A stretch of DNA of 64,000 nucleotides, taken from an uncultured Prevotellaceae bacterium (GTDB taxonomy: Bacteria > Bacteroidota > Bacteroidia > Bacteroidales > Muribaculaceae). How positions within the stretch are numbered: position 1 is the first letter of the stretch; each line of letters starts with the position of its first letter. Below the pieces are notes generated by a model, which worked only from the letters and a program-made list of their open reading frames with translations, made no database searches and was not told the DNA's origin. Positions 3,504 to 30,874 of this stretch are shown here, in pieces. The position numbers and the translations under genes are program-made. The stretch is from the NCBI GenBank assembly GCA_946186575.1, contig CAMHNO010000003.1:62001-126000 (forward strand), given 5' to 3'.

Positions 3504-3511
3504 CAAAGGTA
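3504..3511 (-). promoter_or_regulatory. -7 promoter element of the metal ATPase gene
   Basis: On the minus strand this reads TACCTTTG, a full match to TAnnTTTG. It leaves a leader of roughly 20 nt before the ATG at 3478 and sits next to the palindrome at 3524-3538. Confidence 0.6.
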
Positions 3512-3523
3512 CACCATCTTTCG

Positions 3524-3538
3524 TGCAACTAAGTTGCA
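3524..3538. promoter_or_regulatory. Perfect palindrome at the -33 region of the metal ATPase promoter (candidate operator)
   Basis: TGCAACTAAGTTGCA is a perfect 7-1-7 inverted repeat. Its centre is about 23 nt upstream of the -7 box, so a bound dimer would cover the -33 region. Position next to a metal exporter suggests a metal-responsive regulator, but the regulator family is not known from this window. Confidence 0.45.
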
Positions 3539-3557
3539 AATGTATATTACAGGAGCA

Positions 3558-5645: not shown

Positions 5646-5664
5646 GCCATAAATAAAATGTGGT

Positions 5665-5672
5665 CAAAGTTA
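5665..5672 (-). promoter_or_regulatory. -7 promoter element of the Pif1-like helicase gene
   Basis: Minus strand reads TAACTTTG, 20 nt before the ATG at 5645, a full TAnnTTTG match. Confidence 0.6.
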
Positions 5673-5699
5673 GCCAAAAAGCTCAAGACCACAAAAACA

Positions 5700-5731
5700 T
5701 TAGGAGGCATTTTTTTAACAACGCCTCCTAA
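5700..5731 (-). terminator. Hairpin after the FadL-like gene
   Basis: TTAGGAGGC pairs perfectly with GCCTCCTAA across a 14-nt loop. It lies 35 nt past the stop of the gene ending at 5766. There is no strong T-tract after the stem, so it is a terminator-like hairpin rather than a textbook terminator. Confidence 0.45.
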
Positions 5732-5765
5732 TACCACTATTTCTTTGCGCTCAATGGCGCGAAAA

Positions 5766-7349: not shown

Positions 7350-7409
7350 TTTAATCTATCAATAGGTTCTTAATAATAAATTGAATAAAACAATATTTCT
7401 CGTGATTTA

Positions 7410-8597
7410 TTATCGACGACCACCGTGGCCACCGCCGCCACCATGGCTACCACCGCCGCCACCATGGCTGCCACCCGAGAAGCCACCGCCACCGCCGTGG
7501 CTACCGCCTGAGTAACCACCACTGCTGCGACCACCTGAATAGCCACCGCTACTGCGACTACCGCCTGAGTAGCCACCACTGCTGCGGCTACCGCCTGAGT
7601 AGCCACCACCCGAGTAGCTACGTCCCGAAGGACGCGAAGGAGTTGCTCTCACGCCACTGCTTCCGTTGCTATAAGAACCACTCGAACGACGAGCGCCCAT
7701 GTTGCCGCCAGCCGAGCGATTGCCAGGCTGCATAGTCGAAGTGCGGCCACCGCTGTAACCACCTGTTCCAGCCGATGCACGACCAATGTTGCCGTGGCCA
7801 TATCCGGCCGAGCGGCCACTGTTCACGCCAGGAGCAGCTGCCACGCCATGCGATGGGCCTCCAGCATTGCTTCGACGGCCATTATTCACACCAGGACGAC
7901 GTCCGGTGTAACCGCTGTTATAACGTCCGTGATTTCTCCATCCATGGTCACCGTACCAGCCGTTATGCCAGCCGCCCCAGTGGTGAGGATGATGCCATCC
8001 CCAACTCCAGCCATAGTGCCAGGGGCGAGACCAGCCGTACCAGCTGTTCCAGCCGTACCAGCCGCCATACCAACCCCAGTCGTTCCAGTAGCTGTAGCGC
8101 CATGGGCTATACCAACTCCATCCCCAGCTGTACCAGGGATCATAATAGGCCGAACGCCATCCCCATCCCCACGACGAGGTCCACCCCAAATCGACACCTA
8201 CAATAAGGTTGACTTGTGGAGTGTTGTCGAAGTAATACTCAATCAGGTCAGGGTCATTAGAACGAATTACGATATCGGGGTTGTAGAATCTCTCTATGCG
8301 ACGAGTGTTGGCAAAGGTGTCATCATCAACGTAGAGCGTGTCGTTCTCATCATAATAACCACCATTGCGACGATTGTACTCATCCACGTCACGACCATTA
8401 ACCACACCATGCACAGGAGCAATGGTAACCACAGTGCCATTATCACGCACTGTAACAACCGACTGCTTCCTCACAGGAGCTGGCTTAGTGGGTTCAGAAC
8501 TCCCATCGTAGTAGATGTCGTCCTCATAATCTTGAGCCACTGCACATCCCATTCCCAGGAGCAAGGCACCAATTAAAGACAAAAATTTGTAGTTCAT
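7410..8597 (-). CDS. Secreted Trp/Tyr/Gly/His-rich protein with Gly-Ser repeat tail
   Basis: A 395-residue protein with a signal peptide (MNYKFLSLIGALLLGMGCAVAQ). Residues about 23-125 are acidic and of normal composition. About 140-240 is packed with Trp, Tyr, Gly and His (runs such as GWGW, YSWGWSWYS, WHHPHHWGGW). From about 240 to the end it is low complexity, with repeats of YSGGSRSSGG type, then SHGGGGG units and a terminal GGRR. No family is recognised with confidence; such proteins occur as unannotated secreted proteins in Bacteroidetes. Glycine/aromatic tracts suggest a surface, adhesive or phase-separating role, but that is inference. The DNA of the tail is repetitive and may be copy-number variable. 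Confidence 0.75.
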   Translation of the reverse strand: MNYKFLSLIGALLLGMGCAVAQDYEDDIYYDGSSEPTKPAPVRKQSVVTVRDNGTVVTIAPVHGVVNGRDVDEYNRRNGGYYDENDTLYVDDDTFANTRRIERFYNPDIVIRSNDPDLIEYYFDNTPQVNLIVGVDLGWTSSWGWGWRSAYYDPWYSWGWSWYSPWRYSYWNDWGWYGGWYGWNSWYGWSRPWHYGWSWGWHHPHHWGGWHNGWYGDHGWRNHGRYNSGYTGRRPGVNNGRRSNAGGPSHGVAAAPGVNSGRSAGYGHGNIGRASAGTGGYSGGRTSTMQPGNRSAGGNMGARRSSGSYSNGSSGVRATPSRPSGRSYSGGGYSGGSRSSGGYSGGSRSSGGYSGGRSSGGYSGGSHGGGGGFSGGSHGGGGGSHGGGGGHGGRR

Positions 8598-8899
8598 AGC
8601 GAAATATTTTTATGTTATAATTAATCAATATTATTAATTATTCATTAGACTGATAGCTAAAAAGAAAGTTTAATTAATAATTAATGTGCAAAATTACACA
8701 AAGTATTTGAAAAAGAGCTGCATCAATGCTCATAAAATCAACATTAATCCTCATTTTTCACCCTCTAAACAATCAAGTAGTGCAAATACTGCACCGAAGC
8801 CACGTCGTTTTAACGTTATTTAACTCATTTATTCGAATTTAAGAGTCAGCATCACGATAATAATTTTGTTACTTTGCAGTGTCTAAAAAAATCAGCACT
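8598..8899. other. Divergent intergenic region, 302 bp
   Basis: AT-rich spacer between the Trp/Gly-rich gene (minus) and the CvfB-like gene (plus). It holds the minus-strand promoter at 8689-8696 and, just before the plus-strand gene, a TTACTTTG sequence at 8869-8876 that differs from TAnnTTTG at one base and is its likely -7 box. I see no further gene or stable hairpin. Confidence 0.5.
8689..8696 (-). promoter_or_regulatory. -7 promoter element of the Trp/Gly-rich gene
   Basis: Minus strand reads TAATTTTG, a full TAnnTTTG match, about 90 nt upstream of the ATG at 8597. Confidence 0.45.
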
Positions 8900-9730
8900 A
8901 TGAAAATTGGCCAGTACAACAAGTTAATGATAAACCGCTTCGTTGATTTCGGAGCCTATCTAATCGATGAACAAGAGAATGAAGTGTTGCTACCCAAGCG
9001 TTATCTTAATGGAGAGGAAGAACTTGACGATTATTTAGAAGTTTTCGTCTACAACGACTCTGAAAATCGACCTGTGGCAACTACCGAGAGGCCTGTGGCA
9101 ACGGTTGGTGAGTTCTGTCTCATGCGTGTGAGAGCGGTCAACGCCATTGGGGCATTTCTCGACTGGGGATTAGTGGCTAAAGACTTGCTGGTGCCATTTG
9201 GCGAGCAGCGCGTAAAGATGCAGCCTGGCCGTAGCTACATTGTCTACATCTATCTCGACCCATCGAGCCATCGCATTGTTGCCAGTGCCAAGCTCGACAA
9301 ATTCTTAAGCAAAAAATCACCCAACTATTATCACCGCCAGAAGGTGGATGTACTCATTGTGCAGCAACAAGAGATAGGCTACCGCGTCATCGTCGACGGC
9401 CAGCACTGGGGCATGATTTACAACAATGAGATTTACCATCCAGTCAACATAGGTGAGCACCACATGGGCTTCATCAAGCAGGTGCGCGACGATGGCAAAG
9501 TCGACGTTACACTTTCCAAAATCGAGAAGATGCGCGTCGACGACGTAGCCGCAACAATCCTCACCCACCTAAAATCGCACGGCGGCAGCATGAAACTCAC
9601 CGACAAGTCGTCGCCCGACGACATCATGCGTGCCTTCAATTGCAGCAAAAAAGACTTCAAGAAAGCCTTAGGCTTGCTCTACAAGCAGCATAAGGTCGTC
9701 TTGGGCGAGATGACCACAGTTCTTGCTTAA
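8900..9730 (+). CDS. CvfB-like S1 domain RNA-binding protein
   Basis: A 276-residue protein built like the CvfB/YitL family: S1-like barrels in tandem (about 1-60 with VDFGAYLID, about 70-140 with NAIGAFLDWGL and LVPFGEQRVKM, about 145-215 with WGMIYNNEIYHPVNIGE), followed by a winged-helix region (about 220-276, DKSSPDDIMRAFNCSKKDFKKALGLLYK). Homologues bind RNA and affect expression of virulence and metabolic genes. An in-frame GTG at 8879 would add seven residues, but it lies at the probable transcription start next to the promoter-like TTACTTTG, so the ATG at 8900 is chosen. Confidence 0.85.
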   Translation: MKIGQYNKLMINRFVDFGAYLIDEQENEVLLPKRYLNGEEELDDYLEVFVYNDSENRPVATTERPVATVGEFCLMRVRAVNAIGAFLDWGLVAKDLLVPFGEQRVKMQPGRSYIVYIYLDPSSHRIVASAKLDKFLSKKSPNYYHRQKVDVLIVQQQEIGYRVIVDGQHWGMIYNNEIYHPVNIGEHHMGFIKQVRDDGKVDVTLSKIEKMRVDDVAATILTHLKSHGGSMKLTDKSSPDDIMRAFNCSKKDFKKALGLLYKQHKVVLGEMTTVLA

Positions 9731-9777
9731 GCCCCACTCCTGCAAGTATCCTCAACCCAAATCTCTAAACGCTAAAC

Positions 9778-9813
9778 TTAGGCCCTCATTGGACACGACC
9801 AATGAGGGCCTAA
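9778..9813. terminator. Perfect 15-bp hairpin after the CvfB-like gene
   Basis: TTAGGCCCTCATTGG pairs perfectly with CCAATGAGGGCCTAA around a 6-nt loop. It stands 48 nt past the stop codon at 9730. No T-tract follows, but the stem is very stable and symmetrical. Confidence 0.6.
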
Positions 9814-9902
9814 TCAGTAAGATTGGACAGAAAACTTCATAAAAATCATTGCATTTAACTTAATTTGTTTTTAATGGGCAATATTTTGGCACATTAAGCA
9901 TA

Positions 9903-9910
9903 TACCTTTG
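9903..9910 (+). promoter_or_regulatory. -7 promoter element of the small gene at 9967
   Basis: TACCTTTG, a full TAnnTTTG match, 56 nt before the preferred ATG. Confidence 0.55.
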
Positions 9911-9966
9911 CAGTGTAAAACATAAAAACAATGTCACCAATGGCATTAAAAATGGAGGATACAGCT

Positions 9967-10260
9967 ATGAGTAACAATTCAACAACATTATCAACCAGAG
10001 ATCAAATATTTGCCAGTCTCGAGGTAGCTGGAAAGATTGTGGCTACAGTAAAGAAGAGTAACTTCTCGACCATAAACGAAGTAGTAAAGCTCACATGCGC
10101 AATGGCAGGAGAATTTATGGGGCTCGCACGCCTCAACATTCGCAACATGAGCCAGGGCTGGACCATGACACTGTCGCTGGCCACAAGGCAAACTTCCAAA
10201 CCTCTCACTACAGCCAGTGCACCTATTTCAAGCTACAAGCAAGCATCACTATTCAGCTAA
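9967..10260 (+). CDS. Small protein of unknown function with a strong ribosome binding site
   Basis: A 97-residue protein starting MSNNSTTLSTRDQIF. Four in-frame ATGs lie between 9931 and 9967; the last is chosen because GGAGGA at 9954-9959 stands at ideal distance from it, which is uncommon in this genome. The first 60 residues look like two or three helices (IFASLEVAGKIVATVKK, INEVVKLTCAMAGEFMG), then a polar Ser/Thr tail without predicted structure. No membrane helix or signal peptide. I do not recognise the family. Own promoter at 9903-9910, no obvious operon partner. Confidence 0.55.
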   Translation: MSNNSTTLSTRDQIFASLEVAGKIVATVKKSNFSTINEVVKLTCAMAGEFMGLARLNIRNMSQGWTMTLSLATRQTSKPLTTASAPISSYKQASLFS

Positions 10261-10386
10261 AGACACACTACACACACCGACATTTATCTTTAAATCATAC
10301 CATGTTAAGCACTTAAAACTCGTTTTTTATTTGTTTGACTTCAGTAACTAATGAGAATCTTCCATGCGACATGGCGGATTCTCTTT

Positions 10387-10490
10387 CCTGTTTTCCGCGC
10401 AGTAGTTTTTTTTTAAAAAAAAGATGCTTGATTTTCAACAACATAGATGATATAATTTGCAAATTTGGGTGTCTCATTGCGGAAAACAGG
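10387..10490. repeat. 12-bp inverted repeat bracketing an AT-rich 80-bp core
   Basis: CCTGTTTTCCGC (10387-10398) and GCGGAAAACAGG (10479-10490) are exact reverse complements. The core contains a run of T followed by a run of A that can itself fold. It could be a decayed miniature element or a long hairpin RNA. Confidence 0.4.
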
Positions 10491-10592
10491 AAAAACTGCA
10501 AATCAAAAATTTTGTCTTGAAAAACTTTGACCTTTATTCTCAAAGCTTAATGCAACACATTTACTGTAACGATGACCCATTAATCAAAAAAC

Positions 10593-10638
10593 GCGCTGCG
10601 ACAATGCAATTAAAGAGCAGGTCGCAGCGCATTTTTTT
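10593..10638. terminator. Bidirectional intrinsic terminator
   Basis: GCGCTGCGAC (10593-10602) pairs with GTCGCAGCGC (10621-10630). A T7 tract follows on the plus strand and an A-run precedes the stem, giving a T-tract on the minus strand too. It ends the minus-strand gene that stops at 10657. Confidence 0.75.
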
Positions 10639-10656
10639 GATTATATTGTAATAGTG

Positions 10657-13410
10657 TCAATCGCCCATTAGGATGTTGTAGATTACGGTAACGTCAGCAC
10701 TTGTAATCACACCATCGCCATTCACGTCGCTCGTGGCAATATAGGTCTCGTCACCATTGAGCAAATAGTTGTAAAGGGCTGTGATGTCGGCGCTTGTGAC
10801 CTCACCATCGCAGTTCACATCGCCAATGATATGACCACTACCTTTCACTGATGTCACCACAACAGTAAAGTCGGGTATAGCGATTTCGGTTTGTGCATTG
10901 GCAGTTGTCATCACCACATTCTTCACAATGAACTGAGTGGTACCTGTGAATTCTTCAATAGCTTGCATGTCAATGTTCAAGACAGCACCACTATTGCCAC
11001 TAAAATCGGCAGGAGGGAAGCTCACAGCCACCACTCTAATAGTGCCATCACTCTTGGGATTGGCAATAATATAGTGATTGTCGCTCATGCGGGAAGTCAA
11101 TGTCATGCTGTAGTCACCATTTGCCGAGCGTGGAATCGACAACTCAAATGGCAATTCAATATCAAATTGCAGCGCAGCAATATTTGTAATCTCATTGTCC
11201 ATAATCACAGGCACAGCAATCGTTGACCCTGGCTCCATACTGAAGTCATCGATGTACAATGTATCAACTGGCACATAAGGTCCACTCGCATTTACCACTA
11301 CCGCAAAGTCATCGATAGTGATGTCACTGCCCTTGGTTTTGAGTACCACGTTCTTGACATTGATGACTGTGGAACCTGTAAATTCCCTTGAGGCATTCAC
11401 CTTAAGATACATGATATTGCCATCATCACCTGTAAATGGAGCGGATGGTGTGGCAGCCTCCACCACATGAATCATTGAACCCGATTGTTGTGTGGTGACA
11501 AAATGTCCTGATGCTCGCTCTCCCAGCCTTACTTGCGACGATAGAACAAGCTCTTGAGGAATTTCAAGGTCAAACTCTACAGCGTTAACCACAGCTGTCT
11601 CATTTGTAAGCACCACAGGCACCTGTTTAGAGCGACCGGGAGCAATTGAGAAGTCATTTATTGTGAGATTATCACTTGGCACGTACACACCATTGGCGGT
11701 AACATTAACATTGAAGTCATCAATAGCTGTCTCAACAGCATCGGCTGTTGTCAGCGCAACATTGCTCACACCTATCACTGCAGTACCCGAGAAATCGCGG
11801 CTTGCGGTGATGCTGATATACATTACAACACCTTCATTACCAGAGAAAGGTGTAGGTGGGAAACTGAACGCGGCAATTCCAAGCTGATTTCCGTTCAGAT
11901 TGGCAACTACCTGATGATTGCTGCTCTTGCGGTCGCTCAGTGTAACGCCTTGAGCTGTAGCTGTGAGGCCTTGAGGCATGGTGAGTGTTAGCTGGAATGC
12001 AGCAATTTCACTTGCCTCATTGTCCATTATCACAGGCACTTGAAGAGTTTGTCCTGGGGTTATTTCAAAGTCATTGATATAGAACAAGTTCTCAGGTTCA
12101 AAAATGCCATCGGCTGTTACTGTAACATCAAAGTTGTCAAGGGTTGTAATATCGGCATTAGGCTCAACAAGCTTTATGTTGCGCACATTAATGATAGCCT
12201 GACCTTCGAAATCACGACTTGCTGTGACTTCAATGTTCATTATTGCGCCATCAATGCCTGTAAACACCTTGCTTGAGTTATCGTTTACCTTAATGGTAAA
12301 GCCATTGTCAAAAGCTTCAACATCGAGTTCATGGCCGTTGCAACGCGCGGTAAGTTCCATTACCTCGCCACTTGTAGTTAGTCCCTCGGGCATCACAATA
12401 TCGAAGCTGAAACCACTGAATGCTGTGAGCTCGTTATCGAGCAATACTGGAACTGCCAACTTCTTGCCTGGCTTGATCGAGAAATCGTTGATACTTAGAC
12501 GGTCGGTGGGAGTGTAAACTCCATCGGCGGTCACCTGAACAGAGAAATCCTCGATGGGACAGTCGCGGGCATCGCTCGTTGACAGCATGATGTTTCGAAA
12601 CTCAATAGTGGCATTTCCTGTAAATGATTTACTTGCAACAAAATCGATGTACATTATGTCTCCTTCATCGCCAGTGAAATCGGCTGTTGGGAAGCCAAAG
12701 GCTACTACACTCCAGTGGTCTCCGTTCTTGTTGGCGACAACCTGATGTTCGGCACCCTTGCGGTCGCTCAATGTGAATGACGAGGCAGAGGTGCTGATGC
12801 CCTCGGGCAAATACATGTCGAACTGGAATCCAGCCACGGCACTCGCTTTGTTGTCCATCACAACAGGAACCCTCAACGTTTTTCCAGGTTGAATAGTGAA
12901 GTCGTTCATGTAGAACTCATTGCCAAGCACTACGAAACCTTGAGCGGTTACTGTTGTCGCAAAGTCGGGTTGAGCGTTCTCATGAGCATCACTGGTGGTG
13001 AGTGCTATATTCTTGACGTTGATAATTGCTTGACCTTCAAAATCGGCAGCCGCTGTCACGTCTATATAGGCCACTGCCCCACTGTTGCCAGTGAAATCGG
13101 TAGCAGGGAAACTGAATGACATCACCGTGAGATGATCGCCATTGACCTTTGTCATGAGCTGATGAGAGCTTGAAGCCCTTTCCCCTAACCTTATACCACC
13201 TTCGGCGTCCACACTGAGACCCTGTGGCATGTATAGGTCAAGCTGGAATGCCGCCAGCGCCTTATCGGGATTATCGAGAAGCAGTGGTACCGTCACAGTT
13301 GTGCCTGGCTCGATAGTAAAATCCTCGATTAGAAGGCTGGCAGCACTTGCCTTGGCTCCTGTCAAGGCAAGTACAATCAGCATTAATAAGTATTTAAATC
13401 TTGTGTTCAT
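10657..13410 (-). CDS. Secreted protein with six cohesin-like repeats and a C-terminal dockerin
   Basis: A 917-residue protein: signal peptide at 1-24, then six tandem repeats of about 140 residues starting near 27, 167, 307, 445, 584 and 719. Each repeat opens with xINDFSIxPG, continues VPVxMDNExxxxAxFQxDxxxPxGL, and closes with DFxGNxGxxxYIxxxASxxFxGxxxIxxxNVxLxT, the layout of cohesin-type beta sandwiches (calcium-dependent scaffold modules). Residues 862-917 form a type I dockerin with two calcium loops, DVNCDGEVTSADITALYNYL and DVNGDGVITSADVTVIYNIL. It is 15 bp downstream of another dockerin/cohesin-like gene in the same direction. A scaffold or surface assembly protein is likely; cohesin identity of the repeats is judged by pattern only. 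Terminator at 10593-10638. Confidence 0.75.
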   Translation of the reverse strand: MNTRFKYLLMLIVLALTGAKASAASLLIEDFTIEPGTTVTVPLLLDNPDKALAAFQLDLYMPQGLSVDAEGGIRLGERASSSHQLMTKVNGDHLTVMSFSFPATDFTGNSGAVAYIDVTAAADFEGQAIINVKNIALTTSDAHENAQPDFATTVTAQGFVVLGNEFYMNDFTIQPGKTLRVPVVMDNKASAVAGFQFDMYLPEGISTSASSFTLSDRKGAEHQVVANKNGDHWSVVAFGFPTADFTGDEGDIMYIDFVASKSFTGNATIEFRNIMLSTSDARDCPIEDFSVQVTADGVYTPTDRLSINDFSIKPGKKLAVPVLLDNELTAFSGFSFDIVMPEGLTTSGEVMELTARCNGHELDVEAFDNGFTIKVNDNSSKVFTGIDGAIMNIEVTASRDFEGQAIINVRNIKLVEPNADITTLDNFDVTVTADGIFEPENLFYINDFEITPGQTLQVPVIMDNEASEIAAFQLTLTMPQGLTATAQGVTLSDRKSSNHQVVANLNGNQLGIAAFSFPPTPFSGNEGVVMYISITASRDFSGTAVIGVSNVALTTADAVETAIDDFNVNVTANGVYVPSDNLTINDFSIAPGRSKQVPVVLTNETAVVNAVEFDLEIPQELVLSSQVRLGERASGHFVTTQQSGSMIHVVEAATPSAPFTGDDGNIMYLKVNASREFTGSTVINVKNVVLKTKGSDITIDDFAVVVNASGPYVPVDTLYIDDFSMEPGSTIAVPVIMDNEITNIAALQFDIELPFELSIPRSANGDYSMTLTSRMSDNHYIIANPKSDGTIRVVAVSFPPADFSGNSGAVLNIDMQAIEEFTGTTQFIVKNVVMTTANAQTEIAIPDFTVVVTSVKGSGHIIGDVNCDGEVTSADITALYNYLLNGDETYIATSDVNGDGVITSADVTVIYNILMGD

Positions 13411-13425
13411 CTCGTGCGAGCATTA

Positions 13426-15144
13426 TTATTTCACAAGAACTTTCTTGCCACCAATCATGTAAACACCAGCAGGCAGACCTTGAGTGGCTCTTGAAGCATC
13501 AACGCCCTGACGCATCATCACACCTTGCATGTTATACACGTTGACCTTGTTGCCATCCACACCAATTGTGTTGATCTCGGTAGCCACAGGCGACTTAACG
13601 ACAACATTGGGCAACACGCTCTCAACCTCATTGCTCTGGGTGAAGAAAATGTCGCTGATAATCAGGTCATCATTTGCATCAATAGCTGTCAATGGAGAAA
13701 CCTTCAATGTAATAATGGCATCGCTGCCACTTTCTATCTCCTTGCCGTCAAGCGAGAAGCCAAGCAGACGGATTGAACCGTCGGGGTTCACACCAGTCAA
13801 CAGGATGTGACCATTGGCACGACCAGTGAGGCTTGCGCCATCAAGGGTCAATCCATTTGGCAACTTCACATCCATCTGGAAGCCTGCATAGGTCAACTCA
13901 TTATTGAGCGCAATTGTGATTGTTCCTGTTGATGGATTGTAATTGTTTACAATAATCTCATCGTTGGTCAATGTCTTGGGCACTCTCAAGGCAGGAGCAT
14001 TAGAATTGCCCACTGCAATATTGGCAATGGCAATCAGGTCGGTGATATTGATTGAGCCATTGGCATTGACATCGGCGGCTTCTTCGACAAAAACTTCGGG
14101 AGTCACGCCCACGATGTAGTTGGCAACGCACATAACGTCGGTAACGTTAACCTTCTTGTCACCATTCACATCTCCTGGAATGACTGGTTCTTCAAATGGC
14201 AGAGTGCCACTGCTGAGGACAATCTTGGCATTGCCGCCCACAAATCCCATGCCATCGTTCTTGGCATCGGCAAGAGTGATATTACCTAAGGTAAATACGT
14301 CCTCGGCTGTAATAAATGCTCTTGCATCATCGTTAGTAACCACGTCGCAATAGCCATCGGCATTCTGAACCCAGTTGTAGAGTCCAAAGTTGTAGGTGAC
14401 ACCGGTCTGGTTGTCCTTGTAGCTGGTGAGCACCTGGTTGGGGTTAATCCACTCATTCTTCTCCTCGCCAGGAGTGAACTCAGGTACAAAACCATAGTCA
14501 AGGAAGTTGTATATTGTCACCTTATTATTATAATAGTATAGATACACAGGCATTGAAGCCACTTCGCCGGTGCTGTAGATGTGGTCGCTGTCGTCGAAGT
14601 CGCACACATCATAGCTCATGGTAGCATTGCTTGCCAGGAACTGGGTGTACATGCCGTTATCGTACATAGCACCCGCATTGACATAGGTTTGAGAATCGGG
14701 ATCATAATAGATAAGCGCTAAGTTCCAAGTGGTAGATATTGTGAAACCGCTGGTATTGACACGGCCCGATAGAGCTGTGTTGAGCGCTGTGTTCACATCG
14801 CTGTTAACAACAGACTGTGCCACCACATAGAGATAGCAAGTGTAGTTCTCGTACTGATAGGTGTAAACAGCTTGTGGCATGAACGAAATGGTGTTAGCAC
14901 TCCAGTTCACACTGAAAGTGAGGTCACTACCTTGAGCAAAGTAGTTAGACACCGTAACACGGCTGGAGCCTCCGCTATAAGCCATGCTCACACGGTTAGA
15001 GCCAACGGTGCCACCAGTGTAGATGTCTCGGTCGATCTCGATATTGATACTCGCAAGTTTGTCGGCAGTGAATGCCGTAGCCGCTTGCGACACATTTGTC
15101 GAGAGCAGCGCAAGTAATAAAATTGTTAAAAGATGTTTTTTCAT
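13426..15144 (-). CDS. Secreted protein with internal dockerin, cohesin-like domain and sorting-type tail
   Basis: A 572-residue protein. Signal peptide at 1-21. Residues about 22-310 are a beta-rich, Tyr/Asn-rich region of unknown family. A dockerin lies at about 323-379 (DVNGDKKVNVTDVMCVANYI and DVNANGSINITDLIAIANIA), followed by one cohesin-like sandwich at about 398-515 (ITIALNNELTYAGFQMDVKLPNGL) and a C-terminal segment at 523-572 (VNVYNMQGVMMRQG ... GLPAGVYMIGGKKVLVK) that resembles type IX secretion C-terminal sorting domains. Probably exported and surface attached. It heads the two-gene unit with the six-repeat protein; having both partner module types in neighbouring genes suggests they bind each other or a common partner. 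Confidence 0.72.
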   Translation of the reverse strand: MKKHLLTILLLALLSTNVSQAATAFTADKLASINIEIDRDIYTGGTVGSNRVSMAYSGGSSRVTVSNYFAQGSDLTFSVNWSANTISFMPQAVYTYQYENYTCYLYVVAQSVVNSDVNTALNTALSGRVNTSGFTISTTWNLALIYYDPDSQTYVNAGAMYDNGMYTQFLASNATMSYDVCDFDDSDHIYSTGEVASMPVYLYYYNNKVTIYNFLDYGFVPEFTPGEEKNEWINPNQVLTSYKDNQTGVTYNFGLYNWVQNADGYCDVVTNDDARAFITAEDVFTLGNITLADAKNDGMGFVGGNAKIVLSSGTLPFEEPVIPGDVNGDKKVNVTDVMCVANYIVGVTPEVFVEEAADVNANGSINITDLIAIANIAVGNSNAPALRVPKTLTNDEIIVNNYNPSTGTITIALNNELTYAGFQMDVKLPNGLTLDGASLTGRANGHILLTGVNPDGSIRLLGFSLDGKEIESGSDAIITLKVSPLTAIDANDDLIISDIFFTQSNEVESVLPNVVVKSPVATEINTIGVDGNKVNVYNMQGVMMRQGVDASRATQGLPAGVYMIGGKKVLVK

Positions 15145-15170
15145 TGGTCTGGATTAATTTTTAGTATAAG

Positions 15171-17150
15171 TTATTTAAAAAGTTTCTTTGTAGCTGTGCG
15201 AGTGCCATCATCAAGGGTTGTAACCACAATGTTAACACCGCTAAATGGAGTGCAACTCTCAACACCCATCAAGTTATAATATTTCACATCAACAATCTTG
15301 CCCATGCTCACCGCTGTGTTGATAGCAGTGGGTACATCATAGAGACGCAAAGGATAAACAAGATAGTCGGTCGAGAGGTCATCAGTAACAGGATTACTTT
15401 GACTGCCATCTTTCAAAAGTGGTGCACTACTTGTTGCAGGTGCAACTTTTCTCAAAATAGCGTCAAATTCATAAACATATCCATCCTGAGGATTGCCATC
15501 AGGATAGTAGTCCCAGTTAACCTTGATGCCGCCTGTGAGATTATCGATATTGCCATCGCTCATTGTATAGAAATTGCCGTCGGCAGCATTATAACATGCC
15601 CAAGTGATGTAGGCATACTCCTGAACCTTTGGAGCCACGAAGAAGAAATGGCTATCAGGCGCATAATAAGCCTCATTGAAGCTTGGCATAATGTAGAGGT
15701 TGGGCTCATATGTGCTCTCATCCCCAGCCACTGGATTAGAGGTTACTGCAATTGTGGGGTTAATCTTGTCAACGAGCTTTCCTATAATGCTCTTGCCCTT
15801 TATAATCTTGCCCACGTAGTTATCGGCATTGGCAACACCAGTGAGCATCACCCAGTTGCTCTGGTCATATCCAGCAGCGGGATGGACCTTAGTCTCATAC
15901 ATATCTTTTGCTTCAATTCTTCCCATAAAATCAATCTGCTCATCACCAAGCACAGATGGATTTTTATATTTGCCTAAATCCTTAGCAAAAAGCACTTTGC
16001 CTAAAGAGATAGGATAATTATTGCTTGACGGCCCATAACGTCTTCCATTGACATAGCTCCATCCTCCGTCATCATTATTTTGTGCCAAGTCGGTTGTAAT
16101 ACTAAAGTAACTATAACCATCACCTCGGTCATAAAAATTCACAATTGCACTATAATGAACTCCATCGGTAGTTACCATACGTTGGCCTTGAGTAGGGTCC
16201 CAATAATTGATGTTATAGTCGTTTACCTGTCCAAAAATATGAACTCTTGTGACACCTTCTTCAAAATCAACATTCCAGGGCGTTAATTGCTCAGCAGAAG
16301 ATGCTTGTGACACTCTAAGAGACACAGGTTTTTTGTTGTCGTCTAAATCTACTTCTAATTTATATTTTCCTGGAGCAATTTTGAAAGTGTTTTGAGTAAT
16401 ATAATCTGCAAATTGAATACCCTCAGCCGGCACATTATCAACAACCTTTACCCCTACGAGGTCGTCATAAACCTGATATTCCTCGCCTACTGTGCCATCG
16501 TTGACGATGTCGACCAACTCGGTTTTATATGGAGTCATTTCTGACCTTTCGAAATATTCAACTACACCTACATAGCCACTAGAACGTTCAGTTCTGATAA
16601 AATGTCCCCATGGAGTCATTGTAAAAGAATCATTCTCCATATCATATGTAACAGTAACATAACCTGTTGAAAGACCATATGCAGGTCTTGTTCCATCAAA
16701 TGCATCGAGGTAAGGGTTACTAGTGTTAGTATTCGGCATGGCTGGAGAAACAAAACCAAAGAACCATTTTGTAGAAGTGTAATGTCTTCTATTAAAGTCA
16801 ACAAATACACTTTTTTGCATATTACAATAGAAATGTTCTCTCCATTTAAAGGTTGCGATTGTATTAGTCTCATCCCAAGAGGTCATGCTTGGAATTGATA
16901 CAATTGTAATAGGACCTGTTGTTGCATCATAAGGATATGCAGTCTGGTAAAAATTTGCAAAAGAAAACGTATTAGCTGTTGCATCCCATGTCACAGTCAC
17001 TTTCCATGAGCTAACGACTTCACCGCCACGATAATTATTCATTATATAGTCTCTGGTAAACGACTCTGGCTGTGCTTTTGCAGTATTATTAGTGGCAAGA
17101 GTTGTGAACATTGCGACAAATAATACTGATAGAGTAAGAATTTTTCTCAT
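15171..17150 (-). CDS. Large secreted protein with C-terminal sorting-like tail
   Basis: A 659-residue protein starting MRKILTLSVLFVAMFTTLAT, a clear signal peptide; six upstream codons to 17168 are open but unlikely. The mature part starts QPESFTRDYIMNNYRGGEVV, matching the start of the next gene (QPESFNCNFHQEDFRGEEVV), and contains YFERSEMT around 205 as does its neighbour. A middle region (about 280-600) is beta-rich and unlike anything I recognise. The last 40 residues (YYNLMGVESCTPFSGVNIVV and following) look like a Bacteroidetes C-terminal sorting tail. Function unknown; surface or secreted. It lies 26 bp upstream of the dockerin gene at 15144 and may share its transcript. Confidence 0.68.
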   Translation of the reverse strand: MRKILTLSVLFVAMFTTLATNNTAKAQPESFTRDYIMNNYRGGEVVSSWKVTVTWDATANTFSFANFYQTAYPYDATTGPITIVSIPSMTSWDETNTIATFKWREHFYCNMQKSVFVDFNRRHYTSTKWFFGFVSPAMPNTNTSNPYLDAFDGTRPAYGLSTGYVTVTYDMENDSFTMTPWGHFIRTERSSGYVGVVEYFERSEMTPYKTELVDIVNDGTVGEEYQVYDDLVGVKVVDNVPAEGIQFADYITQNTFKIAPGKYKLEVDLDDNKKPVSLRVSQASSAEQLTPWNVDFEEGVTRVHIFGQVNDYNINYWDPTQGQRMVTTDGVHYSAIVNFYDRGDGYSYFSITTDLAQNNDDGGWSYVNGRRYGPSSNNYPISLGKVLFAKDLGKYKNPSVLGDEQIDFMGRIEAKDMYETKVHPAAGYDQSNWVMLTGVANADNYVGKIIKGKSIIGKLVDKINPTIAVTSNPVAGDESTYEPNLYIMPSFNEAYYAPDSHFFFVAPKVQEYAYITWACYNAADGNFYTMSDGNIDNLTGGIKVNWDYYPDGNPQDGYVYEFDAILRKVAPATSSAPLLKDGSQSNPVTDDLSTDYLVYPLRLYDVPTAINTAVSMGKIVDVKYYNLMGVESCTPFSGVNIVVTTLDDGTRTATKKLFK

Positions 17151-17229
17151 AATAGTATAAATATTCAAATATCTAAATATAATATTTGAGTTCTGAAAGT
17201 TTTTGTTTATATTTATTCGCTTTATTCAG

Positions 17230-17284
17230 CAAGAAAAGGGTGTAACAAAATACATCAAGTAGTGCATTCTGAGACACCCTTCTA
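17230..17284 (-). terminator. Terminator-like hairpin after the 271-residue secreted protein gene
   Basis: AAGGGTGT at 17236-17243 pairs with ACACCCTT at 17274-17281. Read on the minus strand the stem is followed by TTTTCTT, so it would end transcription of the gene stopping at 17299. Confidence 0.5.
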
Positions 17285-17298
17285 TTGCTATTATAAAA

Positions 17299-18114
17299 TT
17301 ATCTCATCAGTTGCTTAGTAACAGTTTTCTGTCCATTGTCAAGCTCCTTAACAACGATGTTCACTCCATCGAAAGGAGTTGCCGATTCAACGCCGAGGGT
17401 GTTGTAATAACGAGTGTTCACCACTTGAGCGTCGTTGTCTATGTCATTGATGGCAGTGTTGGTACGTGTCATTTCTGACCTCTCGAAATATTCAATAACA
17501 ATAGATGCGCTCATATTGTTCCAGTTGTTGTTGCCTACAACGCATCCCCATGGATCGGTGATTTCGATAGTGCCAGCAGCAACATCGATGGTGCCGTGGC
17601 AATCCTGTCCACCATAATAGGCAAAATAGCAGCCAGGATCAACATTGTTGTAAACTGGGTCATAAATCCTCACGGGACTAGTGACATGCTGGAAACGAGC
17701 CACAACAGCAGCCTTGTAGGTGCGGAAAGAAGCATAAGAGAAGGGAAGGTTGGCAAAAACATCGCTCTGTCCCATAGAGCAAGCACGCCAAGTGAAGTTT
17801 GCCTTGCTGTCGCTTACCCAAGTCAAAGTGGTTGGACTAGAAGTTTCGGTAGCATAGGATGGGAACACAAGACTAACAACCTGATCATTTACCAAGTCAT
17901 TGGCATAAAAGTTATTGAAAGTCAACACACCTGTCGACTTGTTCCAGACTACATTGAGATCGTTGGTCCTTACAACTTCTTCACCTCGGAAGTCTTCCTG
18001 GTGGAAGTTACAATTGAACGACTCGGGCTGTGCGCTAGCAGTGAAACCCGCAGACTTGCCCCCTGCAACAAGCAAAAGAGCCATTAAACCAGTGAGAGTA
18101 AAAATTCTTTTCAT
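17299..18114 (-). CDS. Secreted protein, shorter paralogue of the gene at 15171-17150
   Basis: A 271-residue protein with signal peptide (MKRIFTLTGLMALLLVAGGKS). It shares with its neighbour the opening QPESF, the RGEEVV segment, the YFERSEMT motif (about 208-215) and the tail RYYNTLGVESATPFDGVNIV followed by KELDNGQKTVTKQLM. Only the neighbour's long middle region is missing. This suggests duplication followed by insertion or loss of the middle domain. Role unknown. A TATATTTG promoter lies about 130 nt upstream, and a terminator separates it from the next gene, so it is probably transcribed alone. Confidence 0.68.
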   Translation of the reverse strand: MKRIFTLTGLMALLLVAGGKSAGFTASAQPESFNCNFHQEDFRGEEVVRTNDLNVVWNKSTGVLTFNNFYANDLVNDQVVSLVFPSYATETSSPTTLTWVSDSKANFTWRACSMGQSDVFANLPFSYASFRTYKAAVVARFQHVTSPVRIYDPVYNNVDPGCYFAYYGGQDCHGTIDVAAGTIEITDPWGCVVGNNNWNNMSASIVIEYFERSEMTRTNTAINDIDNDAQVVNTRYYNTLGVESATPFDGVNIVVKELDNGQKTVTKQLMR

Positions 18115-18242
18115 ACGTAATGTTTTTAATGTTATTAATAGTTATTAAAGTTTTAAGTTTACTTTGGGTGATAAATACCAGAATCAAGACAAAAGCGATG
18201 AATCCTTTTTTAATATCCTTTTATCATCCTTGAAAAATCACG

Positions 18243-18250
18243 CAAATATA
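18243..18250 (-). promoter_or_regulatory. -7 promoter element of the 271-residue secreted protein gene
   Basis: Minus strand reads TATATTTG, a full TAnnTTTG match about 130 nt upstream of the ATG at 18114. Confidence 0.4.
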
Positions 18251-18385
18251 TAACATTTTATAATAATAGGCAAGAATTTAGGCCAATATTTTGACAATTC
18301 GCAATTTATTGAAAACAAAATCGACAAAAATGTACATTAAATGACATAAAATATTCTTTTTTATTGCAGTTTCATCGTTTTGTAG

Positions 18386-18393
18386 TAACTTTG
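18386..18393 (+). promoter_or_regulatory. -7 promoter element of trpS
   Basis: TAACTTTG, a full TAnnTTTG match followed by CA, 35 nt before the ATG at 18429. Confidence 0.65.
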
Positions 18394-18428
18394 CAGTAAA
18401 TTAGAAAAAACGTTGACAAGAAAATATT

Positions 18429-19517
18429 ATGAAGAAAGTAATTTTGACAGGCGATCGCCCAACAGGTAAGCTCCACTTGGGGCACTATGTGGGTTCACTT
18501 CGCCGCCGTGTTGAACTGCAAAATGCAGGTGATTATGAGAAAATGTTTGTCTTTATGGCCGATGTTCAGGCGTTGACCGACAATGCCGACAATCCCGAGA
18601 AGATTCGCCAGAATATCATAGAAGTGGCTCTCGACTATCTCTCGGCTGGACTTGACCCTGAGAAATGCATTATTTTCATCCAGAGTCATATACCCGAACT
18701 GGCCGAACTCACAACCTACTTGATGAACCTCATCACCGTGAGCCGAGTGGAACGCAATCCAACAGTGAAGACCGAGATCAAGATGCGCAACTTCGAGGCA
18801 AACATTCCACTGGGATTCTTTTGCTACCCAGTGAGCCAGGCTGCCGACATCACACTGTTCAAGGCCGACATTGTGCCAGCTGGCGAGGATCAGAAGCCCA
18901 TGATTGAGATTACTCGTGAGCTGGTGCGCCGCTTCAACGGCACCTATGGCGAGGTGCTCATCGAGCCCGACATCATGCTCCCCGAGAACGAAACAGCTCG
19001 GCGCCTGCCAGGCACTGATGGAAAGGAGAAGATGAGCAAGAGCCTGGGCAACTGCATTTACCTCAGCGACGATGCCGACACCGTGTGGCAGAAGGTGCGC
19101 TCCATGTTCACCGACCCCAACCACCTCAACGTGAGCGATCCAGGAACAGTGGAGGGCAACGCTGTGTTCACCTATCTTGATGCTTTCTCTAACGACGAGG
19201 ATTTCGCAAAATATCTGCCCGACTACCAGAACCTTGACGAAATGAAAGACCACTATCGCCGTGGTGGATTGGGCGACATGAAGTGCAAGAAGCTCTTAAA
19301 CAGCATCCTAAACGAGATGCTCGAGCCCATCAGGCAGCGCCGCCACGAGCTGGAACAGGACATCCCCGAGATTTACAACATCTTGCGTCGAGGCACCGAG
19401 CGAGCACGTGAAACAGCTGTCAAAACAATGGACGAGGTACGCAACGCAATGAAAATCAACTACTTTGATGACAAGGAGCTCATTCAGCAACAATCGGATT
19501 ATTTCAAATCGAAATAA
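18429..19517 (+). CDS. trpS: Tryptophanyl-tRNA synthetase
   Basis: A 362-residue class I aminoacyl-tRNA synthetase charging tRNA-Trp in the cytosol. The HIGH-type motif is KLHLGHYVG at 14-22 in the TrpS context [13 protein letters not shown], and KMSKS is at 201-205 followed by [22 protein letters not shown] at about 151-169 is the conserved TrpS segment before the adenylate site. Length is normal for the bacterial family. It has its own promoter at 18386-18393 and a terminator right after the stop, so it is a single-gene unit. Confidence 0.96.
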
Positions 19518-19538
19518 AAACCAACCATAATAAAACAG

Positions 19539-19577
19539 TAAGAGGGTGTTCAAGTTGAAACTCCCTCTTAATTTTTT
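19539..19577. terminator. Terminator between trpS and the convergent DUF3109 gene
   Basis: TAAGAGGG pairs with CCCTCTTA, followed by ATTTTTTATTT on the plus strand. It ends trpS and overlaps the stop of the convergent gene, which may use the same stem. Confidence 0.65.
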
Positions 19578-20163
19578 ATTTAAGATATTGCTTAATGTAA
19601 AGTTCGCAGTTAGCCACGAGTTCATCATACCATGCCTGCCCAAATCGTCTTATCAATGGCTCTTTCAGAAACTGATAGACTCTGATTTTCTTGCTTCGCC
19701 CAAGCACCTCGGCACTCTTGCAGATTTTCCAACGATGGTAGTTAACAGCCACATTGCCATTAGACAACGTCTTGAGGCGCAATGGATAAAGAGCACACGA
19801 GATGGGTTTGAACTGCTCTATTCTGCCCTCACGATAGGCCTTCTCTATGGCGCAAATGCACTTGCCGCCTGGAGCATAGCACGAAAACACACAATTGCTG
19901 CCGTCCAGAATTTGAGTCACAAGCTCACCCTCTGGATCATGATAAGAGATACCATTCTCTTCAATTTCCTGTTGCGCCCGTGGCAGCAGGTCGTCCCATA
20001 TTTCGGGCAAAATTTTCTTTATTTCCTCTTCTTCCTGGGCAGTGAGTGGCGCACCAGCATCGCCGTCGATGCAGCACTGCCCCAGGCAAGTGTCGATGTC
20101 GCAGCAAAAGAATCGCTCCACAACATCGAGCGTGACAAGAGTGTTATCGTTAATCAAGAACAT
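19576..20163 (-). CDS. DUF3109 family protein (Cys-rich, probable metal-cluster protein)
   Basis: A 195-residue protein with the Cys pattern of the DUF3109/YkgJ-like group: FFCCDIDTCLGQCCIDGDAG near residue 18-37, then SNCVFSCYAPGGKCICAIEKA and FKPISCALYPLRL. Family members are cytosolic and thought to bind zinc or an Fe-S centre; the biochemical role is not established. It starts 3 bp after the stop of cdaA, so it is surely the last gene of the folP-cdaA unit. Confidence 0.85.
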   Translation of the reverse strand: MFLINDNTLVTLDVVERFFCCDIDTCLGQCCIDGDAGAPLTAQEEEEIKKILPEIWDDLLPRAQQEIEENGISYHDPEGELVTQILDGSNCVFSCYAPGGKCICAIEKAYREGRIEQFKPISCALYPLRLKTLSNGNVAVNYHRWKICKSAEVLGRSKKIRVYQFLKEPLIRRFGQAWYDELVANCELYIKQYLK

Positions 20164-28568: not shown

Positions 28569-28925
28569 ATGTTCACAAGCGAAAGCTACAACACATTCAT
28601 TTCTCAATTCAGCAAGGTAGTGACCAAGCACATGGCACAAGGACACGTGTCGCTCGTGAGCATTGCCCAGGAGTTTCACATCACTCGTGGCCAGCTCAAC
28701 CGTCGGGTCAAAGCTCACTTAGGCATCACTGCCCAGCAATTGGCACAAAACATCAGGATTGACCACGCCAAGCGTCTGTTGGTGAACAATCGCGAGTTGC
28801 CAATTGCCGATGTGGCATTTCAGTGCGGTTTCGACGATGCAACCAGCTTCACTCGCGCCTTCCACCGAGCCACCGGTTACTCACCATCACTTTATAGAAA
28901 TAACCCAAAAAAACATCATCTATGA
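28569..28925 (+). CDS. Stand-alone AraC-type DNA-binding domain protein
   Basis: A 118-residue protein consisting only of the AraC HTH domain, alignable along nearly its whole length with the C-terminus of the preceding gene: TRGQLNRRVKAHLGITAQQL versus SRSQLNRRIKAITGVTTQQY, and VAFQCGFDDATSFTRAFHRA versus VAYKCGFDDVASFSRAFRRT. It lacks any sensor or dimerisation part. Its TGA overlaps the ATG of the secreted protein gene by four bases (ATGA), a sign of translational coupling. Probable local regulator derived from a duplicate of the upstream sensor's output domain. Confidence 0.8.
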   Translation: MFTSESYNTFISQFSKVVTKHMAQGHVSLVSIAQEFHITRGQLNRRVKAHLGITAQQLAQNIRIDHAKRLLVNNRELPIADVAFQCGFDDATSFTRAFHRATGYSPSLYRNNPKKHHL

Positions 28926-30874
28926 AAAAAATTTTTGCCACATTATTATTATCTCTCATTGCATATAGCGTTCAAGCCTCCACCTACTACGGATTCAAGA
29001 TTGGTGGTGTGGCAGTTAACAGTGACAACTATACTAATGTGAAAGGCTCTAACATCAAAGCTAACGACACCACCCTGCCCTACAAGGTGTCGTATGACCC
29101 CTCTACCAAGACCGTGACACTTAACAATGTAAAAATTGAACGCACAGGCAGTGACAACCGTTGCATCTACAATGAAGAATGCGATGGGCTGAAAGTCTTT
29201 TTCAGCACCGCCAACAGTTACCTGAGTTCCACAACATGCGCTCCTATCCGCCTTAATGCTAACACCACTTTCACTTGTGAAGCGCTTGTGCAGGTGAGTG
29301 TGCATGGCACCGATGGCGACGCTAATGCTCTTTATGCCAGCAATGGCGCTACCGTAACATTCGACCATGCCACATTTTTCATGTACGTCAGAGGAAATTC
29401 TAATCCGGCAGTAAGTTGCAGTAGCACCACCGACGAAAAACTTGTGATTCACCATTCTCGCTTCTATGCTCAAAGTGCTAATGGCAGTGCCCTATCGCGC
29501 TTCTCAAGTGTGAGATGCGAAGGCTCGGCGGTGATACTAAATACCAATAGCGAAACAGCCTATGCTATGAGCCAAGTAACAGCCTTCTCTTGCTCCACTT
29601 ACCCAATGATGACAATCGGTTACAACCATTCTATTACCAATTTTCTGACATATACCTGTTTTGGAGCAGCATCATTCAGCAGCAGTGTGAAGACATTTGT
29701 AAACTTAGGTAATGACGTTTTGCCAGGCAAGGACATCATCATTTCACAGCGTATTCCTATCGATGAGTCAAACTTCCTCGATGCCGCCTTCCGCTCTTGG
29801 CTGACCGAGAAATATGGCTCCTACCTCGAAACTTACGAAATTTTTCAGATTCGTACTATCAATGTTGAAACATCGGGCAATACAGTCTTGAAGAACGTGC
29901 AGGACTGGACAGGTATTCATAATTTGGCATGTCTCAGGCGGCTTTGGATCCAGGGCGGAAAGACAATAATTCTACGATTATATTCTAACAAGGAGTTTTA
30001 TCACTTGAAGTGCTACGACAATCCGCTGGGCCTTTCGTGGGTAGGTCTGGCATCTTCTTTTAACCCAGTGCCAAGTGGCAATGAAGGCGTAATAGAAGGG
30101 TTTAACGCTACTGCTGGCGAGCACAATTATCTCCCTATCCGCTCTCAACTCGCCCAGATGAAGAGCAATGATTTTGACTTCGTTGTAAAGAATGGCGACC
30201 AGACCTTTTCGCTCAACGCACTACAGGACTATTGGCCCATCGATTACTTCCACTTCCCCGATGACGCTTTCCGCACCTACCTTTATAGCACTGCCGCAGG
30301 CCTCGACGCTGTGGTTTATGATAGCGAGAATGCCAACATCCTCGGCTTTGACCTGAAAAACATGAAAATCGCCGACCTCACAGGAATTGAGGGCTTCACT
30401 AACCTCACTCACCTTTATGTCTACCAAAATAAACTATCAACAATTAACCTCTCGCAGAACTCCAAATTAGTTTTGCTTTATTGCTACTGGAACAAGATAA
30501 AGAGCGAGGGTTGGGACCAGTTTATTGCCAGCGCACCCACATTTCCTAACCGCCTCGATGTGTATTGCTACTACCCAAGTAGTGCCGAGCAAAACGACCC
30601 TCCCACCTATGAGCAAGTGGCTCAAGCTAAAGCCAAGAACATCCACTTCTATCAACGCTTAAGCTACAACTGGGAAGAGATGAGCGACACCCCACCTGCG
30701 GTCCCTGGCGATGTGAATGGCGACGGCAAGGTGACATCGGTCGACATCACAGCACTCTACAACTACCTGCTCAACAGTGACGACAGTGCCATTGTCAATG
30801 GCGACCAAGACGGTGATGGGCACATCAGCAGCGTCGACATTACCGCTGTCTACAACTTATTGCTTGGAAATTAA
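28922..30874 (+). CDS. Secreted protein with LRR-like segment and C-terminal dockerin
   Basis: A 650-residue protein with signal peptide (MKKIFATLLLSLIAYSVQAS). The first 280 residues are a beta-rich region with Ser/Thr-rich turns, possibly a beta helix (YNEECDGLKVFFSTANSYL and similar). About 290-540 contains leucine-rich-repeat-like stretches such as LTGIEGFTNLTHLYVYQNKL and LSQNSKLVLLYCYWNKI. A type I dockerin fills 596-650 (DVNGDGKVTSVDITALYNYL, DQDGDGHISSVDITAVYNLL), very like the dockerin of the gene at 10657-13410. Translation is coupled to the AraC-domain gene through ATGA. Likely surface exposed; binding partner may be a cohesin-like domain encoded elsewhere. Confidence 0.75.
   Translation: MKKIFATLLLSLIAYSVQASTYYGFKIGGVAVNSDNYTNVKGSNIKANDTTLPYKVSYDPSTKTVTLNNVKIERTGSDNRCIYNEECDGLKVFFSTANSYLSSTTCAPIRLNANTTFTCEALVQVSVHGTDGDANALYASNGATVTFDHATFFMYVRGNSNPAVSCSSTTDEKLVIHHSRFYAQSANGSALSRFSSVRCEGSAVILNTNSETAYAMSQVTAFSCSTYPMMTIGYNHSITNFLTYTCFGAASFSSSVKTFVNLGNDVLPGKDIIISQRIPIDESNFLDAAFRSWLTEKYGSYLETYEIFQIRTINVETSGNTVLKNVQDWTGIHNLACLRRLWIQGGKTIILRLYSNKEFYHLKCYDNPLGLSWVGLASSFNPVPSGNEGVIEGFNATAGEHNYLPIRSQLAQMKSNDFDFVVKNGDQTFSLNALQDYWPIDYFHFPDDAFRTYLYSTAAGLDAVVYDSENANILGFDLKNMKIADLTGIEGFTNLTHLYVYQNKLSTINLSQNSKLVLLYCYWNKIKSEGWDQFIASAPTFPNRLDVYCYYPSSAEQNDPPTYEQVAQAKAKNIHFYQRLSYNWEEMSDTPPAVPGDVNGDGKVTSVDITALYNYLLNSDDSAIVNGDQDGDGHISSVDITAVYNLLLGN

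Follow-up and report, generated by a model that had tools for sequence, protein, structure and literature searches.

We analyzed a window of 64,000 nucleotides (positions 62,001 to 126,000 of contig CAMHNO010000003.1, assembly GCA_946186575.1, from an uncultured bacterium of the Muribaculaceae), whose source genome, here G000, measures 2.7 Mb and is 95% complete. Two neighboring genes in the window, P1 and P2, encode a predicted cohesin scaffold and a proposed surface anchor with a tail resembling those of the type IX secretion system (T9SS). P2 lies upstream of P1 in the same direction, with an intergenic gap of 15 bp. Their features are as follows, residues being numbered in amino acids (aa).

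10657..13410, minus strand: P1, predicted hexavalent cohesin scaffold of 917 aa, with a signal peptide (by eye), six cohesins and a C-terminal dockerin.
12919..13338, minus strand: P1 cohesin repeat 1, aa 25–164 (repeat profile and alignment).
12502..12918, minus strand: P1 cohesin repeat 2, aa 165–303, the repeat used for modelling.
12088..12501, minus strand: P1 cohesin repeat 3, aa 304–441 (repeat profile and alignment).
11671..12087, minus strand: P1 cohesin repeat 4, aa 442–580 (repeat profile and alignment).
11263..11670, minus strand: P1 cohesin repeat 5, aa 581–716 (repeat profile and alignment).
10840..11262, minus strand: P1 cohesin repeat 6, aa 717–857, where the PF00963 match of the genome search falls.
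10669..10824, minus strand: P1 type I dockerin, aa 863–914, of the genome's common recognition class (each half has Tyr at loop position 17).
13426..15144, minus strand: P2, dockerin-cohesin-T9SS-like-tail protein of 572 aa, proposed surface anchor.
14023..14178, minus strand: P2 dockerin, aa 323–374, with recognition residues that differ from the common class.
13567..13956, minus strand: P2 cohesin, aa 397–526, ends approximate (repeat profile, model, Foldseek).
13429..13566, minus strand: P2 C-terminal T9SS type A-like sorting tail, aa 527–572 (TIGR04183).

The six tandem repeats of P1, starting at aa 25, 165, 304, 442, 581 and 717, are 136–141 aa long, share 32–52% pairwise identity and have 20 invariant columns. 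They are followed by a Dockerin_1 domain (E 1.9e-12) in which both calcium loops are present. The original prediction, made from the letters of the window, of six repeats of about 140 residues and a C-terminal type I dockerin was therefore confirmed. It had also called the repeats cohesin-like, and on this point the standard cohesin profile, PF00963, gave a divided answer: hmmscan found no match in P1 or P2 at E ≤ 1, but a six-frame search of the genome returned a single match, on P1, of 24.3 bits (with neighbors) against a cut-off of 24.1. The cohesin copies are too diverged for a tandem repeat search of the DNA, which detected no unit, and a sequence search of P1 against the PDB gave matches via the dockerin alone. 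When a profile of 68 repeat domains was compared with PDB sequences, the top three were cohesins, but with E values of 0.047–0.18. The predicted structure of repeat 2 had a pLDDT (predicted local distance difference test) of 96.4, and cohesin entries filled rows 1–46 of 50 in a Foldseek search; by VIA, cohesins occupied 49 of the 50 rows, some under titles without the word cohesin. The modelled repeat is 10–18% identical to the cohesins that it matched by structure. By this structure prediction the P1 repeats are cohesins with the jelly-roll fold, in agreement with the earlier proposal. Separately, many cohesins of the Bacteroidales set compared here, including those of G051, a genome of another Bacteroidales family, share the motif L-[ST]-x-R with an H slightly further on (alignment model columns 50–58), a possible signature by which to find further ones.

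P2 carries a Dockerin_1 domain (E 2.4e-11), and in a search of the dockerin-protein set its residues from about 397 to 526 matched the P1 repeat profile (E 2.3e-9), as did P2 orthologues in nine of nine relatives. The model of its dockerin-cohesin-tail part had a mean pLDDT of 66.9, the dockerin (<50) and most of the tail (blocks 47–65) being unusable; the cohesin blocks reached 73–94, and Foldseek rows 1–30 were all cohesin entries. Against the T9SS type A model TIGR04183 (cut-off 23), the last 72 aa scored 23.6 bits, with 22.5 in the genome search. The domain matches and the model support, with a tail scoring around the cut-off, the earlier description of this 572-residue neighbor, which had given it a dockerin, a cohesin-like domain and a sorting-type tail.

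The cohesins that we found across the genome number nine, six in P1 and one each in P2, D33 and D32; the last three proteins have T9SS-like tails, and all four also carry a dockerin. D33 and D32 adjoin on contig C10 and share the dockerin-cohesin-tail order of P2, with BspA-type leucine-rich repeats (LRRs) in their first halves. The D33 tail scored 26.0 bits against TIGR04183 in the genome search and 22.4 by hmmscan. Thirteen T9SS-tail-like places were found in the genome at E ≤ 0.1, six of them above the cut-off, including D33, with P2 and D32 below it. SprA, the T9SS translocon marker and the component searched for, was present (TIGR04189, 2730 bits). We also observed that the dockerin within anchors, before or between cohesins, forms a sequence class of its own, for example VTVTDVVVTAQYV, unlike the other dockerins seen in the same genome; this class was seen at window positions 13429–15144 and in loci L128, L129, L130, L131, L143, L144 and L145. 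It may serve anchor-to-anchor linking.

The dockerin profile PF00404 matched 81 times, in 79 open reading frames (ORFs) of the genome, with three of the matches inside the window (P1, P2 and a further protein, P3, all with both calcium loops read). What had been proposed as a minimal dockerin-cohesin assembly is therefore not minimal: the genome count came to 79 dockerin ORFs and four cohesin proteins, glycoside hydrolases included. Both dockerin halves and their loops were read by pattern in 75 of the 79 ORFs, and 57 of those 75 end no more than 12 aa past the second half. The pattern itself requires Asp at loop position 12 and Asp or Asn at position 5, and no invariance was drawn from it; in alignments of 72 of the genome's own dockerin proteins, the loop Asp residues were invariant or nearly so. 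By a crude test, all 70 untruncated dockerin ORFs have a hydrophobic N-terminal stretch. D15 has an in-frame stop inside its dockerin.

Pfam scans took in 76 of the 79 dockerin ORFs (D15, D46 and D68 were left out). Peptidases were found among them (C10, 6; S8, 3; M6, 3), as were carbohydrate domains (CBM26, 5; GH13, 3; GH53, 1; GHL10, 1), CotH (6), LRR_5 (6, plus D32 and D33) and FGE-like domains (4), and many of the ORFs had no Pfam family. GH13, CBM26 and a dockerin are joined in one ORF at L040:3250-5391 and at L047:874-3807. The dockerin-bearing GH13, GH53 and GHL10 proteins are located elsewhere in the same genome, and nine dockerin ORFs neighbor each other on contig C20, at 10–36 kb. 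None of the Pfam lists of the scanned ORFs, P1 included, contained GH9, GH48 or CBM3. Judged by its known domains, the cargo suggests starch, galactan and protein as targets rather than cellulose.

Related proteins were found to end in either a dockerin or a tail. Genome G033 has two adjacent amylase (GH13) paralogues, one ending in a dockerin and the other in a T9SS-like tail of 22.3 bits against the type A model (cut-off 23), and an amylase paralogue of G005 ends in a tail that this model did not recognize. In G051, a Porphyromonas-type peptidylarginine deiminase (PAD), a C10 peptidase and C25 C-terminal-domain proteins end in dockerins; the best-known members of the PAD and C25 families are tailed T9SS cargo. 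From these few examples, dockerin and T9SS tail look like two routes to the same place.

In type I complexes, the cohesin contacts lie around loop positions 10–11 and 17–18 of each dockerin half. Position 17 was Tyr in both halves in 70 of the 75 own dockerins read, including those of P1 and D33, with the dockerins of P2 and D32 among the five exceptions. From relatives we sampled 60 dockerins out of the best-scoring PF00404 matches, 51 of which were read by pattern: position 17 was Tyr/Tyr in 16/16 from four clade mates, and Ile or Val in 35/35 from eight other genomes. Eight of the nine unread by pattern are, by eye, Leu-Ile-Asn/Asp. The GH13-CBM26-dockerin protein D55 has relatives in 18/18 genomes, with Tyr in 5/5 from clade mates (72–79% identical) and Ile, Val or Leu in 21/21 of the distant ones with a dockerin (47–53% identical). 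These 28 GH13 relatives (L209–L236) comprise 23 read by pattern, three read by eye (L211, L213, L218) and two, L228 and L236, without a dockerin. Among D33 homologues, that of G041 has the Tyr class and those of G015 and G005 do not. Agreement of residues within a genome and a switch from clade to clade is what would be expected of a repertoire that tracks one partner. The G051 dockerins form a third recognition class (26 of 30 loci were kept for this reading; L241, L242, L249 and L256 were left out), and their cargo domains include peptidase, PAD and Omp28.

Around P1 and P2, and further along the window, the following features were placed.

15171..17168, minus strand: P4, conserved partner gene in which no domain was found, 26 bp upstream of P2.
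17299..18114, minus strand: P5, conserved partner gene with no domain above cut-off.
10583..10632, minus strand: terminator-like GC-rich inverted repeat and T run, about 25 nt past the P1 stop (by eye; ends approximate).
28922..30874, plus strand: P3, dockerin protein with weak LRR similarity and a C-terminal dockerin at aa 595–648 (E 2.9e-11), the third dockerin protein that had been noted at 28922.

P1 was found in nine loci of metagenome-assembled genomes (MAGs) at 64–72% identity, labelled Muribaculaceae, Bacteroidales or Prevotellaceae. The hosts named are red deer, water buffalo (two) and goat, four of the nine are RUG genomes, which we take to be from cattle rumen, and for one no host is given. 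This set overlaps with the genomes numbered G, as L119, L121 and L123 are apparently G010, G044 and G041. The order P4-P2-P1 is kept in all nine, with P4 at 54–88% identity; P5 is present in eight (69–83%), the ninth locus, L124, stopping at the contig end. Eight P1 orthologues have six repeats. The ninth, at L127 8001–9896 (MAG RUG12310), has four cohesins, and scaffold valency thus varies among relatives.

Cohesin proteins of other designs occur as well. In 20 loci of 13 relatives we found 43 cohesin ORFs, 34 of them with a dockerin in the same chain. Many of the relatives' anchors, of 600–1500 aa, follow the order [cohesin]-dockerin-cohesin-tail; in six loci a cohesin-dockerin protein of 211–220 aa stands beside such an anchor, and other proteins have two cohesins. 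G051 has 38 dockerin matches, and its locus L141 (G051:C25:203000-222900) holds, at 839–19738, three adjacent large genes, encoding a dockerin protein of 2484 aa, a protein of 2466 aa with eight cohesins and a T9SS tail, and one of 1239 aa with five cohesins. The eight-cohesin protein scored 36.1 bits for Pfam Por_Secre_tail (cut-off 27) and had no Pfam cohesin at E ≤ 1e-6.

Elsewhere in the window, two AraC-like regulator ORFs (by eye; 26834–28456 and 28569–28925, plus strand) directly precede P3, and the second shares 4 bp with the beginning of P3, an arrangement resembling translational coupling. Adjacent lipoprotein-like ORFs at 30923–31462 and 31499–32038 (plus strand), of 179 aa each, have a near-identical leader and first 33 residues and diverge after that.

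We then compared the distribution of the two modules; all cohesin and dockerin statements on relatives' genomes are among the matches listed, and the dockerin counts are lower bounds, with the best 69 (genus and other-family set) or 25 (family survey) candidates scored per genome. Both modules were found in 49/49 genomes of the same genus, G000 included, although G013, G037 and G047 have one weak cohesin match each (E 6e-4 to 2e-5). Dockerin matches occurred in 15 of 32 genomes from other families (one or two in 14 of them), and cohesin matches in two, G051 and G069; large numbers of both were seen in G051 only. A survey of the family took in 247 genomes, and in it both modules were present in 26/26 of the same genus. 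Among the 221 outside it, dockerins were found in 41/50 cohesin-positive and 36/171 cohesin-negative genomes (odds ratio 17, Fisher p = 5e-15, shared descent ignored). A strict rule that cohesins occur only where there are many dockerins was rejected by this survey.

We propose that P1 and P2 supply cohesins to a surface assembly of the cohesin-dockerin type in a rumen bacterium of the Muribaculaceae group (Bacteroidales), and put the probability of this reading at about 0.74. One genome holds both a multi-cohesin scaffold (P1, with six cohesins) and many dockerin proteins (79 ORFs). A surface complex is our best inference for the P1/P2 system. P1 would be an exported hexavalent scaffold that multiplies docking sites and plugs into another cohesin by its own dockerin. 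P2 and the tandem pair D33/D32, each with one cohesin and a T9SS-like tail, would hold the assembly on the outer membrane; most likely, the T9SS exports such tailed proteins and fixes them there, and their cohesins take up dockerin proteins. The cargo would be some 75 exported dockerin proteins, among them CBM26 amylases, GH53, C10, S8 and M6 peptidases, and CotH, FGE-like and LRR proteins. We infer the binding and pairing of cohesins and dockerins, the surface location and the passage of tail-less cargo and of P1 across the outer membrane. The main partner of the cargo dockerins may be the P1 repeats or the single cohesins of P2, D32 and D33.

As to that passage, the cohesin-dockerin pair might act as a sorting signal in trans, in which tail-less dockerin proteins bind a tailed cohesin in the periplasm and the T9SS exports and fixes both. 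We regard this as a tentative idea that is rather doubtful. If it were true, a few tailed anchors (P2, D33, D32) would export or hold about 75 tail-less proteins, and whole dockerin repertoires would co-evolve with the anchor's cohesin.

Several observations weigh against a surface assembly built on P1 and P2. Scored as a whole protein, P2 reached 17.6 bits against TIGR04183, below the cut-off of 23, and the D32 tail is weak, with 17.7 bits in the genome search and no match listed by hmmscan. P1 is restricted to part of the genus, as six-repeat loci were found only in G000, G010, G011, G041 and G044 among the matches listed for 49 genomes. In classical scaffoldins the scaffold's own dockerin differs from the cargo dockerins; that of P1 belongs to the cargo class. 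The uniformity of dockerins within a clade could also stem from recent duplication or gene conversion, which would give the same picture. Conservation among the P1 repeats does not favor the face presumed to bind dockerins: exposed positions on its sheet (strands 8-3-6-5) and on the back sheet score alike (0.476 vs 0.476, 18 vs 16 positions, p = 0.90, with the faces assigned by pattern, without coordinates). A dockerin is absent from the chain of nine of the 43 cohesin ORFs at relatives' loci, and no dockerin match was listed for 9/50 cohesin-positive genomes from other genera of the family, so that cohesins also occur alone. Conversely, G081, an 85% complete genome of genus g34 in the same family, gave at least 25 dockerin matches but none to the cohesin profile, its cohesin being either missing from the assembly or too diverged.

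The unpaired modules outside the genus (9/50 and, with G081 among them, 36/171 genomes with dockerin and no cohesin) and the lack of face-specific conservation would also fit repeats that are cohesin-fold adhesion modules for a non-dockerin ligand, with the dockerins binding an unrecognised partner; some Foldseek neighbors of the repeats are cohesins from outside cellulosomes, in Clostridium perfringens and Archaeoglobus. However, the modules coincide in all 49 genomes of the genus searched, two families (that of the genus and that of G051) are rich in both, and a dockerin shares the chain in 4/4 cohesin proteins of G000 and in 34/43 cohesin ORFs of relatives, which makes this alternative unlikely. 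We give still less credence to the idea that the dockerins dock to nothing and only cap the chain end, stabilized by calcium and homogenized through duplication and gene conversion. The dockerins of one genome are indeed very similar and some cargo genes adjoin, as on C20, but the switch from clade to clade affects the positions of cohesin contact in known complexes, with the loop Asp residues invariant or nearly so, orthologous amylases (47–79% identical) switch in the same way, and a sorting-like tail replaces the dockerin in one paralogue. A classical cellulose-degrading cellulosome acquired from Firmicutes, which the presence of both modules and the ruminant origin of named relatives might suggest, was rejected as highly improbable, since the scanned dockerin ORFs include no cellulases (GH9, GH48) and no CBM3, the cargo is directed at starch, galactan and protein, and the modelled repeat is only 10–18% identical to the cohesins matched.

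The gene system behind the proposed surface assembly is real, conserved and large, and was probably overlooked because its cohesins lie at the edge of detection; lacking GH9, GH48 and CBM3 on the scanned dockerin ORFs, it was not filed as a cellulosome. PMC12997984 reports 78 Bacteroidetes MAGs from the human gut with both modules, considers this surprising and in need of study, and states that cellulosomes have been described in Firmicutes only; PMC9177762 gives cohesins as found in Firmicutes only. In PMC9863278, the rumen Muribaculaceae C941 has dockerins and GH13 without cohesins and is considered probably "non-amylosomal", and rumen Prevotella such as UBA3846 are suggested, from domain counts, as possible cellulosome makers. 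PMC6071333 lists two Bacteroidetes bins with cohesins, a single one beside five dockerins in the first and two in the second, which lacks dockerins. Given these bins and the Prevotella suggestion, cohesin matches in Bacteroidetes are therefore not new as such. Our searches of the open-licence literature turned up no account of a scaffold with anchors in Bacteroidota, a negative that also relies on the statement in PMC12997984.

The present genes provide concrete scaffold and anchor candidates for the missing cohesin half of dockerin-rich rumen Muribaculaceae, and the borderline PF00963 scores suggest why the standard profile misses these cohesins. Residues and cohesin-dockerin pairs can now be named for testing, and the question is raised of how a bacterium with an outer membrane would put such a complex together.

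Like the clostridial and Ruminococcus scaffoldin systems (type I/III cohesins), G000 has a protein in which tandem cohesins precede a C-terminal dockerin, together with dozens of exported proteins that bear dockerins, further proteins with one cohesin each and, as predicted here, the same cohesin fold. It differs in its Bacteroidales host, in the lack of CBM3 and GH9/GH48 on the scanned dockerin ORFs, in cohesins almost invisible to PF00963 and in a scaffold dockerin of the cargo class. Cellulosomal single-cohesin anchors of Clostridia and Ruminococcus have SLH (S-layer homology) or sortase signals, whereas the single-cohesin proteins of G000 end in T9SS-like tails. With the Ruminococcus bromii amylosome (PMC9763041), it shares dockerin-bearing GH13 with CBM26, but it has many non-starch cargoes, including peptidases, and belongs to another phylum with other anchoring and other module sequences. 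Dockerin richness and dockerins with GH13 are shared with the rumen Muribaculaceae Sodaliphilus and C941: Sodaliphilus has 63–107 dockerins per genome, with cohesins unmentioned in the main text (PMC10872696), and the difference is that cohesins were found in G000. From dockerin counts and named relatives, G000 would seem to belong to this group. For rumen Prevotella and the Bacteroidetes bins, the texts seen give domain counts with no account of a scaffold, of anchors or of module matching, and these G000 adds. Like T9SS type A cargo, P2, D33 and, weakly, D32 end in sorting-domain-like tails in a genome with SprA, but here the tail follows a dockerin-cohesin pair, and related enzymes swap dockerin for tail.

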